The notes under the pieces: generated by a model
Told to the model about the DNA's origin: nothing
What the model saw: only the letters and a program-made list of their open reading frames with translations
The model's database searches: none
NCBI RefSeq assembly: GCF_012271785.1
Contig: NZ_JAAWVT010000001.1
Span: forward strand, 248,001 to 312,000
Length of the DNA: 64,000 nucleotides
Direction of reading: 5' to 3'
Source of the DNA: Paeniglutamicibacter terrestris
GTDB lineage: Bacteria > Actinomycetota > Actinomycetes > Actinomycetales > Micrococcaceae
Made by a program: the position numbers and the translations under genes
In this document: positions 25,887-29,701 of the stretch, piece by piece
How positions within the stretch are numbered: position 1 is the first letter of the stretch
Layout of the letters: each line of letters begins with the position of its first letter

Positions 25887-27245
25887 CTACAGCCCCAGCA
25901 CCGTGCTGGCCACCAGGAAGTAGATGATCAAGCCGGTGGCATCTACGAAGGTGGAGATGAACGGATTGGAGAATACCGCCGGATCCGCGCGCACCGCCTT
26001 GCCCAGCAGCGGCATCAACCCGCCCAGGCTCGCCGCCATGGTGCAGACTCCCAAGAGCGTCAACCCGATAACCAGGCCCAAGGGCACGGTGAAGGCAAGC
26101 GCGGCAATCACAAAGCCCAGGGACCCGAGCAGCAATCCCAGCAGCGCACCAACCCGGACCTCGCGGGTGAAGACCTTAAAGACATCTCGGGGACGCACAT
26201 CGCCCAGCGCGAGCGCCCGGGTAATGGTGGTCGCCGCCTGATTCCCGGTGTTGCCACCGGTGCCAATCAGCAGCGGGATGAACAAGGAGAGCACCACCTG
26301 CGCCTCAAGTGTTGCCTCGAAGGCACCGATGACCTTCACCGTAAGCGTCGCGCCAAGGGCTAAAACCAGTAGCCAGACGACGCGAGCCTTCACGATCGAG
26401 CGCACCGGGGTAGCCAGGTAGGGCCGACGCAACGGCTCGCTTCCGCCGGAGCGTGCAGCATCCTCGCTCTCCGCATCCTCCAAGATCCGCAGCGCATCAT
26501 CCACCGTCAAGATGCCGACCAGACGATCGCCCTCATCAATGACCGGGAGCACCAACACCTTCGTTTCGGCGCAGTAACGTGCCGCATCCTCAACGTTCAT
26601 CGAGGCCACCACGCTCAGTGGCTTCTTCATGATCGAGCTGATGGGTGTGCTCGGATCTGCCCGCAGGACATCGCGCAGCGAGATGACCCCGATCAGGCGT
26701 GCCTGCGCATCGGTGACCGGAATGGTGTAAATGCTTTCCGCGTCATCGAGCCTGGCCCGCACGCGTTCTAGGGTTTGTCCAGCGCTGAGTGTCGGATCGG
26801 TGGTGACAAATTCCGGGCTCATAAAACGTCCCACGGCCCGGTGCGGGTAGCTGCGCACAGCCGTGGTCAGCGTCCGTGAACGCTCATCCAGTCCGTGCAT
26901 CAGCGCGGCCACCATGGATTCGGGAAGCTCATCGGCAAGTGCCACGCGGTCATCCGGGCGCATCAAGGCGAACACCGTTGCGGCCTCGGCCTCGCTGAGT
27001 TGCTCAACGATTTCCACCTGCAGTGAGGTGTCGAGGCGGTCAAAAACGTGCTGGGCCACCTCGGGGCGAAGCGCCGCATAAACCAGTCCGCGCTCGGCGG
27101 CGTTCAGCCGCTCAAACTGTTCGATGACTTCGGTGGTATCCAATGGCGCCAGGGCTGCGGCAATGCCTTGTTCATCGTGAGCCGTCAGCGCGTGAGCGAG
27201 CTGATCGGCGGTGATATCAAAGGATATGCTGGGAGATTTGATCAT
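25887..27245 (-). CDS. mgtE: Magnesium transporter MgtE
   Basis: 452-residue Mg2+ channel/transporter. In order: the N-terminal superhelical domain (LAHALTAHDEQGIAAAL to LPESMVAALMHGLD), two CBS domains (about 135-255, with VTDAQARLIGVISLRDVL and VLPVIDEGDRLVGILTVDDAL), and five transmembrane helices with the MgtE signature (LLIGTGGNTGNQAATTITRALALG). The ATG has GGAGGG upstream. In the family the N and CBS domains close the pore when intracellular Mg2+ is high. The gene has an unusually long leader (about 400 nt) with a short ORF, which suggests a second, RNA-level Mg2+ control. Confidence 0.95.
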   Translation of the reverse strand: MIKSPSISFDITADQLAHALTAHDEQGIAAALAPLDTTEVIEQFERLNAAERGLVYAALRPEVAQHVFDRLDTSLQVEIVEQLSEAEAATVFALMRPDDRVALADELPESMVAALMHGLDERSRTLTTAVRSYPHRAVGRFMSPEFVTTDPTLSAGQTLERVRARLDDAESIYTIPVTDAQARLIGVISLRDVLRADPSTPISSIMKKPLSVVASMNVEDAARYCAETKVLVLPVIDEGDRLVGILTVDDALRILEDAESEDAARSGGSEPLRRPYLATPVRSIVKARVVWLLVLALGATLTVKVIGAFEATLEAQVVLSLFIPLLIGTGGNTGNQAATTITRALALGDVRPRDVFKVFTREVRVGALLGLLLGSLGFVIAALAFTVPLGLVIGLTLLGVCTMAASLGGLMPLLGKAVRADPAVFSNPFISTFVDATGLIIYFLVASTVLGL

Positions 27246-27660
27246 GATCCGGGTCCCTCCGGTGGGGGCACACGTATTCTGACGCGTTTACACGCGGCGC
27301 ATGCCAGTCATTGGTGGTGTGGGGGTGTATCTTCACCGCAACCGCGTGTTACCCACGCACCAAAACCAGACATCATTTCCCGGATGATCAATGGCCCACC
27401 TTTGCTACCTTCAACGTAGCGGCGCCGCATGGACGCAACACCCATAGCTGGGTGCAAGGAGTTAGAACCGAATGACGGAGAGGATGATGCTGGCACGGCG
27501 GTGAGACACACGCGGTGCGATAGATCGACTTGGAACGTCGTCCATGCGTGCTCTCACCTCCTTCGGGCGAATCATCAGATGTCGTGGGATCCGGTGTGAA
27601 CTACGTCCCTCGAGGCACGCGCTGATACCCGGATCGTTTGAGGGTACGCCCCATCCTAGG
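27246..27660 (-). promoter_or_regulatory. Long structured mgtE leader
   Basis: A promoter-like TTGGCT (19-nt spacer) TAGGAT pair ends at about 27654 on the minus strand. About 400 nt of leader then follow before mgtE, with a 27-codon ORF (27545-27462) and hairpins such as CACCC/GGGTG (about 27441-27455) and GCTAC/GTAGC (about 27404-27420). I do not find the M-box consensus. Confidence 0.5.
27462..27545 (-). CDS. Putative mgtE leader peptide, 27 residues
   Basis: Short ORF starting MDDVPSRS and ending LSVIRF-stop. It has the best ribosome site of the region (GAAGGAGGTGAGAG, 8-9 nt before the ATG). It lies 216 nt upstream of mgtE inside its leader. Two acidic codons followed by a proline codon right after the start resemble the N-terminus of enterobacterial MgtL, whose acidic and proline codons destabilise ribosomes at low Mg2+. 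The similarity is of composition, not of alignment. Regulation of mgtE by translation of this ORF is inference. Confidence 0.5.
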   Translation of the reverse strand: MDDVPSRSIAPRVSHRRASIILSVIRF

Positions 27661-27717
27661 CACAGTGATCGGAACTAAGCCAATGGCTGTGTCCGAGCTC
27701 TCAGTGCGAGTGCGCTG

Positions 27718-28224
27718 CTAGTGGGTCGGAACCCAGTAGCGATTGGTCATCCCGTCGCTGGCTTCAACGACGTTTTCCAGCACTCCCCCATTGGCTTCGA
27801 TGGTGCCAGCGGAGGCAATATTATCCACCCGGCAGGTCACCAGCGCGCTCTCGATTCCCCGCTGGGCCAAGACGTGCAGTGACTGGCGCAGGATTTGGGT
27901 CGCATAGCCCCGGCGGCGATGTTGTGGTCGCACCGCATAACCAACATGACCACCGACAGATCGCAGGTGATCGTTGAGTTCAAATCTGATGCAGGTGCGC
28001 CCCACCAGTTCACCGTCAACAAACGCGCCCCAGAGGGCCGACTTCACCCATCCCGGTGGCAAGCCCAGGCCCTGTTCGTGGGCGGCGAGCTGCTCAAGAT
28101 ATTCATCAAAACCGCGCCGGCTCGAGTATCCCAGCAGGAAATCGAAGTCATCGGCATCCAGCTCGGTGCGCGCAGCGAGCGCTTCATCGCTGTCTTGAAA
28201 GGTGAAAGGTCTAATCACAAGCAT
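27718..28224 (-). CDS. GNAT family N-acetyltransferase
   Basis: 168 residues with the GNAT acetyl-CoA fold. The pyrophosphate-binding motif A is VGYAVRPQHRRRGYATQILRQSLHVLAQRG, cited by its core QHRRRGYATQIL. Motif B is VDNIASAGTIEANGG, and the C-terminus ends TNRYWVPTH. The start ATG has no ribosome site; a GATACT box lies about 9 nt before it, and this promoter overlaps the sdaA terminator hairpin. The substrate is unknown. Confidence 0.82.
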   Translation of the reverse strand: MLVIRPFTFQDSDEALAARTELDADDFDFLLGYSSRRGFDEYLEQLAAHEQGLGLPPGWVKSALWGAFVDGELVGRTCIRFELNDHLRSVGGHVGYAVRPQHRRRGYATQILRQSLHVLAQRGIESALVTCRVDNIASAGTIEANGGVLENVVEASDGMTNRYWVPTH

Positions 28225-28238
28225 GTTGTGAAGAGTAT

Positions 28239-28271
28239 CAGGCGGGTGTCCCGCGATGGGACACCCGCCTG
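28239..28271 (-). terminator. Terminator of the gcv-sdaA operon
   Basis: Perfect 14-bp arms (CAGGCGGGTGTCCC, loop of 5 nt) 20 nt after the sdaA stop. It also covers the promoter region of the GNAT gene downstream. Confidence 0.8.
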
Positions 28272-28291
28272 CTATTCGTGCGGCTAGAGAA

Positions 28292-29701
28292 CTAGCACTC
28301 GATGACGTTCACGGCCAGACCGCCCAGGGCGGTCTCCTTGTACTTCGAGCTCATGTCCTTGCCGGTTTCGCGCATCGTGATGATGACCTCGTCGAGGGTG
28401 ACATGGTGCTGCCCGTCGCCCATCAGCGCCATCTTGGCGGCGTTGATGGCCTTGGACGCGGCAATGGCGTTGCGTTCGATGCATGGAATCTGCACCAGCC
28501 CACCAATCGGGTCGCAGGTCAGGCCAAGGTTGTGTTCCATGGCGATTTCCGCGGCGTTCTCCACCTGGTCCACGGTGCCGCCCAAGATCTCGGCGAGTCC
28601 ACCGGCGGCCATCGAGGAGGCAGAACCGACCTCACCCTGGCAGCCGACCTCGGCGCCGGAGATGGAGGCTTGCTCCTTGTAGAGCACACCAATGGCGGCG
28701 GCGGTGAGCAGGAAGCGCACGATCAGGTCCTCGCGTTCCTCCTGGTTCCAGTACTTGGCCCCGGGTGCGTAGTGGGTCGCGTAGAACATCACCGCGGGGA
28801 TGATGCCCGCTGCCCCATTGGTCGGGGCCGTGACCACACGACCGCCGGAGGCATTTTCCTCGTTGACGGCAAGGGCCACCAGGTTCACCCATTCCTGCCA
28901 GAACACCGGATCGCGATCCTTGTCTTCCTTGGCCAGGCGGCGGTGCCATTCCGGAGCACGGCGACGGACCTTCAGCCCACCGGGCAGCACACCCTCACGT
29001 TCCAGGGAGGCATCCTTGCAATCCTCCATGACCTGCCAAATGTGCAACAGCCCGGCGCGGATCTCTTCCTTCGAGCGGTAGACCTCTTCGTTGGCGGCCA
29101 TCACCCCGGCGATGGACAGACCCGAGGTGGCGCAGTGTTCCAGCAGCTTTGCCGCGGTGGTGAAGGGGTAGGGCTGCGCATTGAGCGCGTCCTCGAGGTT
29201 GGCAGCAAGCTTTTCTTCGGCGCCCTCGCGCACGATGAAGCCGCCGCCGACCGAGAAGTAGGTGTCTTCGGCCAAAACGTTGCCGTTGGCATCCAGGGCT
29301 GCCATCTTCATGCCGTTGGTGTGCCGCGCCAGCACGGTCAGCGGGTGCTGGATCATGTCCTCGACCTTGTAGTCGAGTTCCTTCACCGCACCCAGTGCCT
29401 TGCAGAGCTGAAGTTTGCCCGTGGCTGTCATGGCGTCAAGGCGTTCATCCACCTCGGAGGGCAGGATGGCTTCGGGTTCATAGCCTTCCAAGCCCAACAT
29501 GATGGCGGTGAAGGTTCCATGGCCGCGGCCCGTCGCAGCGAGGGATCCGTAGACATCAACGCGTAGCGATTCGGTATTCGCGAGGTGCTCTTCGCGGACA
29601 AGTTTTGAAGCAAAGGCGTAGGCGGCCCGCATCGGTCCCACGGTGTGCGACGACGATGGCCCGATACCTACGGTGAAAAGGTCAAAAACGCTGATAGCCA
29701 T
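28292..29701 (-). CDS. sdaA: L-serine ammonia-lyase (iron-sulfur type)
   Basis: 469 residues, single-chain form with both the beta and alpha domains. It deaminates L-serine to pyruvate and ammonia using a [4Fe-4S] cluster. The N-terminus [20 protein letters not shown] is diagnostic. Cluster cysteines are expected in [18 protein letters not shown] and [17 protein letters not shown], both intact. The ATG at 29701 has GAAGGAAG 8 nt upstream; the frame further up is spurious. It is the last gene of the glycine cleavage operon, 142 nt after glyA, so glycine can be turned into serine and then pyruvate. Confidence 0.95.

Follow-up and report, generated by a model that had tools for sequence, protein, structure and literature searches.

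Organization of the mgtE leader

The window, i.e. the whole stretch of 64,000 nucleotides of Paeniglutamicibacter terrestris that was analysed, contains on its minus strand the magnesium transporter gene mgtE (25887-27245), whose product of 452 aa comprises the Pfam domains MgtE_N, CBS and MgtE. The 472-nt intergenic region between mgtE and a GNAT acetyltransferase gene (27718-28224) houses an ORF of 27 codons on the minus strand (27462-27545; ATG 27545-27543, TAA 27464-27462), which encodes the peptide MDDVPSRSIAPRVSHRRASIILSVIRF. Its Shine-Dalgarno (SD) sequence AAGGAGGTGAG is located at 27563-27553 and its stop codon lies 216 nt ahead of the mgtE start codon (ATG, 27245). An earlier sequence-only reading of this region, which had described a 27-codon ORF with a strong ribosome site at that distance from mgtE, was accurate on these points. 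A second, distant MgtE-like gene (L016, G000:C12; 29% identity) is present in the same genome.

Upstream of the ORF, TTGGCT (27683-27678) and TAGGAT (27658-27653) probably form a minus-strand promoter, as suggested by their conservation, seen by eye in the genus alignment. The two elements are separated by 19 nt and were missed by the consensus scan, in which spacers of 16 to 18 nt were allowed. The scan itself detected on the minus strand one promoter-like site upstream of the ORF (27600-27571; 0.4 expected), which is not conserved and was set aside, and none between the ORF and mgtE. A weak terminator-like site between the ORF and mgtE (27383-27366; 0.3 expected) was absent in the leaders of the other species compared, except for the near-identical L058. 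Further downstream on this strand follow a GCGGTTGCGGT motif (27345-27335), conserved by eye and situated in a variable hairpin in relatives, a terminal hairpin (27305-27267; outer arms 27305-27298 and 27274-27267, inner arms 27296-27293 and 27286-27283, read from the window sequence and relatives), and the mgtE SD within CCGG-AGGGAC-CCGG (27262-27249). Among the hairpins that the sequence-only reading had placed between the ORF and mgtE, the region of the terminal hairpin, ahead of the mgtE SD, folds better than shuffled sequences in relatives on average (mean z -1.81 in 32 leaders, 14 of them below -2) but weakly in the window itself (z -0.92). An anti-SD ahead of the mgtE SD, which is conspicuous in the leaders of some Arthrobacter, was rejected with a mean z of only -0.78 over the 32 leaders and of 0.16 in the window.

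Conservation and distribution of the ORF

Each of the 15 genomes of the genus Paeniglutamicibacter, to which the window belongs, has an mgtE orthologue and in all of them the ORF lies upstream of it. Because of this conservation, a chance occurrence is excluded; the ORF is both real and conserved, with no M-box upstream of it. Scanned with one mismatch allowed, the core pattern ATGGANGAYGNNCNNAGTCGATC occurred in 43 of 245 family genomes from 4 of 32 genera, with one match per genome, and the reversed pattern gave no match in these 245 genomes. All 30 matches retrieved as loci were situated 201-379 nt upstream of mgtE. In the window's genome, the pattern was found once, before the mgtE of the window. 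An exact scan for ATGGANGAYGNNNNNAGTCGATCTA in the GTDB collection, whose total may lack the window's own genome, yielded 27 stretches, 26 of which lie 236-348 nt before an mgtE in the same direction. The remaining one (L158), from a Truepera MAG, is located inside a longer ORF with neither SD nor mgtE and is probably a chance match.

In the genus alignment (14 rows, the near-identical L002 being left out), mean pairwise identity was 0.88-0.91 over 27565-27521, a section covering the SD, the start and codons 1 to 8, and decreased to 0.55-0.60 by about codon 14. The remaining leader revealed values of 0.19-0.74, with minor peaks at the probable promoter (0.58-0.61) and in the CCCACACCACC region (0.73), before identity rose again to 0.81-0.83 at the SD and start of mgtE. 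Within the SD of the ORF, GGAGGTG is near-invariant in the alignments A1 and A3. The C-terminus and the position of the stop codon vary among relatives, whose ORFs encode 11 to 47 aa, and in Arthrobacter L040 a 1-nt deletion causes a frameshift directly after codon 8. A divergent member of the genus, L049 (MDDGPSRCNVP), stands outside A1, A3 and the codon-selection set, while the Glutamicibacter-type genus g23, labelled so for its identical peptides, was included in A3 and the codon-selection set and stands outside A1 and the set used for the fold z values.

In the family sample, 47 of the 120 genomes, representing 16 of the 32 genera, had mgtE at E 1e-60. By our own reading of the leaders, at least one species in nine of these 16 genera possesses the ORF (g1, g3, g4, g18, g21, g22, g23, g24 and g32), the ORF of g3 being recognized by eye only and that of g4 occurring in one of four genomes. 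In the same reading, no such ORF was seen in seven mgtE-bearing Micrococcaceae genera (g2, g6, g8, g12, g13, g15 and g17) and thus mgtE can do without it. For some leaders with no significant model match, the ORF was chosen by eye among the SD-linked ones (L110, L117, L118, L121, L123, L132, L201-L203 and L081). A phylum-wide mgtE search was too distant to help.

Some side observations were made at these loci. One g22 genome (G120) has four mgtE matches (L086, L088, L090 and L108), only one of which is preceded by a leader ORF. At some Arthrobacter mgtE loci, a tRNA gene precedes the leader ORF by approximately 80 nt (L034, 1333-1420; L038, 1605-1692). The leader ORF together with mgtE was also found in L156 (NZ_JADHDY010000005.1), a record titled Sporosarcina beigongshangi, a title that is probably wrong.

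Selection on individual codons

Selection was determined from 29 sequences that are distinct over codons 1 to 13 and represent four genera, L040 (frameshift) and L049 being dropped. At codons 2 and 3, the acidic pair GAC GAC of the window (27542-27537), pS amounted to 0.60 and pN to 0.055. All 29 sequences have D or E at codon 2 and D at codon 3, with synonymous changes; the acidic residues are evidently kept by selection. The sequence-only reading had pointed to acidic and proline codons near the start. Alignment of the relatives' leaders upheld the ORF start and the acidic codons, conserved with synonymous substitutions, but not the early proline: codon 5 varies freely (P in 11, H in nine, N in four and S in three sequences, R and Q in one each) and the conserved proline sits at codon 11 (23/29), followed by R12 (27/29). 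The window's copy is divergent in that codon 4 encodes V in place of the G present in 27 of the 29 sequences.

Codons 6 to 8 (AGT CGA TCT; 27530-27522) are nearly frozen, synonymous positions included, with AGT in 27, CGA in 29 and TCT in 26 of the 29 sequences. The three codons are uncommon: in the long ORFs of the window, the relative use of AGT and TCT among the Ser codons is 0.07 and 0.05, respectively, and that of CGA among the Arg codons 0.12, and in the mgtE parts of the relatives' loci AGT and TCT together account for 7.5% of 722 Ser codons. Codon 6 of L070 is TCT, the Ser residue being kept though the nucleotides differ. The comparison showed the ORF to be selected as a reading frame, with its important part in the first eight or so codons. 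Two other uses of the frozen block were considered and set aside, a frameshift that would meet a TAG in another frame at the AGT codon, as the T preceding AGT is not conserved, and sensing of Ser/Arg starvation by classical attenuation, for which no evident link to Mg2+ genes exists.

M-boxes and the ORFs below them

An Rfam search of positions 26500-28500 gave no family match in the leader at E up to 5, the M-box (ykoK leader) riboswitch RF00380 included, and two weak matches elsewhere; at the same threshold, the M-box was absent in L001. The covariance search with this model, envisaged by the sequence-only reading as a negative control, was therefore blank for the leader. A family-wide search, run like all searches above 40 genomes with stricter filters, detected M-boxes in 31 of 240 genomes and in none of the 15 genus genomes. 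At the thresholds used, two Rfam scans of the leaders of other relatives gave no M-box in 15 of 20 and 17 of 18 cases, respectively. M-boxes were present in 18 of 40 genomes of genus g37 and in 25 of 394 genomes of the class sample. We take g37 to be Mycobacterium and g38 to be Nocardia.

The same kind of ORF occurs downstream of an M-box in the genera g4 (L072), g21 (L071) and g18 (L070) and in the distant family f68 (L119, L120 and L131). Altogether, apart from the mycobacteria, four families (f1, f66, f67 and f68) have M-box-linked ORFs of this kind, and across Actinobacteria similar ORFs lie 54-155 nt below the M-box. A closed, SD-linked ORF 40-140 nt below the M-box was found at 19 of 29 Micrococcaceae loci and at all 29 g37 loci. 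Of 28 newly retrieved class loci, which include 14 of g37 and three that repeat L119, L120 and L131, all but L292, hence 27, have below the aptamer an ORF with an SD at a distance of 54-155 nt. A set of 48 M-box ORFs, chosen by position and SD alone (29 of them from g37; L226 and L253, whose loci are short, were excluded), was compared with a null made up of the other small ORFs at these loci, taken with no SD requirement. Residues 2 to 10 of the M-box ORFs are D, E, S, P or G in 78% versus 34% in the null, and AGT makes up 62% of their 172 Ser codons versus 7%. Among the genes below the M-box are those for MgtE, Nramp, P-type ATPase, CorA, MgtC and an ABC permease, the downstream gene being defined as the longest of the ORFs whose start lies 90-800 nt from the M-box and thus not always the first gene. 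In g26, the M-box directly precedes mgtC and the SD below it starts the gene itself, the leader ORF being missing. M-boxes before MgtC-type genes were likewise noted at L285 and at L208, L210, L214, L215 and L217 (Pfam checked for L208 and L285).

Both arrangements can be found within one genus or family. Three species of g18 have the ORF before mgtE; one of them (L070) has an M-box as well, which the other two (L073 and L074) lack at E up to 5. In f68, three leaders possess the M-box, and two more, L123 and L132, lack one at E up to 0.5 and have a similar ORF that was identified by eye. At L224 (G230), an M-box and a different short ORF (MKSRSPRSKV..) precede one mgtE, and an ORF of the window type without M-box is located elsewhere.

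Relationships among the leader ORFs

Two models were compared, R2, built from the sequences alone of 37 ORFs of the window type, the window's own among them, and R1, a model of 28 g37 ORFs; the E-values of both are rough due to a short calibration. R2 matched the M-box-linked ORFs of two sister genera, g18 (L070; 2.7e-6) and g4 (L072; 2e-5), as well as the M-box-linked L287 (MPDDSRSRSLG; 6e-4) from family f5, which belongs to another order. Its values for g21 L071 (0.07, suggestive only), g7 L227 (0.11) and the g37 ORF L238 (2.4 at best) were much higher. All seven R2 matches at E <0.001 outside the training set keep the start codon in place, as ATG (L049, L070, L073 and L287), GTG (L095 and L097) or TTG (L072). 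The ORF lists admitted ATG, GTG and TTG starts only, and the interchange of starts is evidence only in these model matches.

With default filters, R1 gave no match in 70 sources. In an unfiltered R1 search, which took in no g1 or g32 loci, the best of the window-type ORFs supplied was L097 with an E of 0.1, while the positive control L245 reached 2e-14. R1 matched seven M-box leaders, L277, L282, L283 and L284 of f66 and L278-L280 of f67, with E-values of 8e-8 to 2.2e-5, and none of the M-box leaders L285-L290. The g37-type peptide is therefore not confined to mycobacteria, contrary to the wording in the available sections of PMC12810186, where it is termed mycobacteria-specific. A fair reading of these data is that there are two sequence types, DSP and DDGxSRS, with L287 as a possible bridge, since its MPDDSRSRS looks intermediate.

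It had been proposed that the leader is independent of the M-box. This holds insofar as the window's leader and the 15 genus genomes have no M-box, but the ORF significantly matches M-box-linked ORFs at three loci. As it resembles ORFs directly below M-boxes, independence here means absence of the M-box in this lineage.

Comparison with known leader peptides

As described in the accessible parts of PMC12810186, the M-box of M. tuberculosis controls the conserved uORF Rv1805A (uORF2) via a translational platform and Rho-dependent termination, and the role of the uORF was left unclear there. The ORF of the window resembles this uORF in being short, in having a GGAGGTGA-type SD, in its position in the leader of Mg2+-related genes, and in combining a conserved N-terminus that contains AGT serines with a variable C-terminus; the N-terminus of the uORF2 type is rich in D, S and P. 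The g37 peptides begin with MSSGDSPSRY.. and MSPSDSPYP... By contrast, the window type reads MDD(V/G)xSRS, has no M-box upstream and is not matched by R1, and the window's MDDVPSRS lacks the DSP core with proline at position 7 that marks uORF2. With MgtL of enterobacterial mgtA, the ORF shares its own SD before a Mg2+ transporter gene and acidic residues straight after the start. Unlike MgtL, whose motif is EPDP according to the portion of PMC11282234 at hand, the ORF has no conserved early proline, carries a nearly frozen Ser-Arg-Ser codon block further on, and precedes mgtE and not mgtA. Judged by these comparisons, the closest relatives of the ORF are M-box-linked uORFs, not MgtL. The suggestion of an M-box-independent control by a leader peptide thus pointed in the right direction, with a conserved ORF and no M-box. 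A literature search retrieved, in the parts of the sources available, no report of actinobacterial mgtE leader peptides nor of an M-box-type uORF outside mycobacteria or without an M-box.

Possible function of the leader ORF

The preserved acidic codons 2 and 3, the frozen codons 6 to 8 and the free C-terminus point to a leader peptide that acts in cis through its first eight or so codons, and it is quite probable that the uORF acts in cis. The explanation preferred here, to which a probability of roughly 45% is assigned, is that the ORF is a cis-acting mgtE leader peptide representing a riboswitch-less form of an actinobacterial magnesium-leader uORF, the ribosome being the likely remaining sensor. 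It is supported by the conservation of the ORF and its position before mgtE, the selection at codons 2 and 3, the freezing of codons 6 to 8, the kept start codons with a free C-terminus, the residue and AGT bias of the 48 M-box ORFs, the R2 matches to M-box-linked ORFs, the presence in g18 of the same kind of ORF with (L070) and without (L073 and L074) an M-box and, weakly, the EttA-type protein described below. A ribosome initiating at the strong SD would meet the sequence D/E-D-G-x-S-R-S, encoded in part by the three uncommon codons AGT-CGA-TCT, which are presumably read by wobble. With few residues in the tunnel, it may pause or become destabilized there, more so at low Mg2+, and its fate would set whether the downstream leader permits transcription or mgtE translation. 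In M-box lineages, the aptamer would gate access to the uORF; here, the uORF would act without an aptamer. Sensing of Mg2+ by the ribosome is plausible; that its behaviour at codons 2 to 8 constitutes the Mg2+ signal has somewhat less than an even chance. Counted against this explanation are the unconserved early proline, the polarity of the M. tuberculosis uORF treated below, the fact that the R1 and R2 types were not joined, the seven of 16 mgtE genera without the ORF and the terminator-like site at 27383-27366.

The alternative that survives best, though it is unlikely, is a translation gate without sensing, in which any ribosome on the uORF would shield the leader, either against Rho or against folding into a sequestering form, and thereby enable mgtE expression. 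The aptamer would control this gate in M-box lineages, whereas in the window's lineage it would be constitutive or set by general translation, the start region being kept for efficient initiation. This fits the SD being among the most conserved parts, the M-box and ORF preceding genes of several transport-related families, and the platform combined with Rho reported for the uORF2 leader in the sections of PMC12810186 seen. It leaves unexplained, however, why acidic residues 2 and 3 are kept with synonymous change and why AGT-CGA-TCT is frozen. Furthermore, the same sections place the main termination site upstream of the uORF, so that termination there may not depend on uORF translation.

A full MgtL-type switch would be a special case of the leader-peptide explanation and is doubtful. 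At high Mg2+, completed translation would expose a Rho terminator, while abortion of translation at low Mg2+ would hide it and turn mgtE on. A short ORF with early acidic residues before a Mg2+ transporter gene and the absence of an M-box agree with such a switch. The window's genome also encodes a TIGR03719 protein (899.6 bits; cut-off 806.75), which we take to be an ABC-F protein of the EttA type. Such proteins are common and the support is weak for this reason. In the available text of PMC11282234, early acidic motifs are described as stalling or releasing ribosomes, with EttA acting on them in E. coli as a rescue factor. On the other hand, the early proline is not conserved and the published M-box uORF has the opposite polarity: in the part of PMC12810186 consulted, its translation accompanies the low-Mg2+ ON state in M. 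tuberculosis. If translation means ON, ribosome drop-off at low Mg2+ would turn mgtE off, which makes poor sense, and the polarity here may therefore differ from that of MgtL.

It is quite improbable that the AGTCGATCTA block is an RNA structure or a protein-binding site in DNA or RNA whose reading frame is incidental. The nucleotides are indeed conserved at synonymous sites, and a hairpin around the ORF start, in which the SD pairs with downstream CACC/CGCC, was seen in single folds, with one compensatory pair in the candidate helix (L148, alignment read by eye). This hairpin was rejected, as its mean z was -0.75 over 32 leaders and its RNAalifold covariation term only -0.35, with one of 13 pairs doubly changed. 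RNA structure thus does not explain the conserved block, and a structural or binding site would not account for pS far above pN at codons 2 and 3, for the start codon, be it ATG, GTG or TTG, that all seven R2 matches retain, or for the Ser retained at codon 6 of L070 despite the nucleotide change. An action of the peptide in trans as a small protein, e.g. on the transporter, for which the conserved N-terminus, the similar length of the g37 versions (22-30 aa) and comparable proposals for Rv1805A in the available part of PMC12810186 could be quoted, is very improbable in view of the unconserved C-terminus, the length of only 11-13 aa in the listed g7 ORFs, the frameshift in L040, the almost complete lack of hydrophobic residues at positions 2 to 10 and the location in leaders of Mg2+-related genes.

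Returning to the cis-acting leader peptide, a wider proposal can be made, tentatively and on the doubtful side: the uORF and not the M-box might form the core common to many Mg2+ leaders of Actinobacteria, in which early acidic residues and uncommon Ser/Arg codons would make the ribosome a Mg2+ gauge. The M-box would be an add-on gained or lost, and before mgtE, relatives in Paeniglutamicibacter, Glutamicibacter and Arthrobacter would rely on the ribosome as the sole sensor. Leaders without M-box are a natural deletion experiment and suggest that the ORF has a job beyond receiving the signal of a riboswitch, and the nearly frozen codons indicate which part of the ORF deserves attention. Should the ribosome be the sensor, the MgtL principle would reach Actinobacteria with a different sequence code. 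Compared to what the available sections of PMC12810186 report, such ORFs are new in four more families, before several transport-related gene families and without an M-box. As a further observation on M-box leaders, G725:C1 has two M-boxes, at 5377556-5377738 (minus strand) and 5378101-5378269 (plus strand), which are about 360 nt apart and seemingly belong to divergent leaders.
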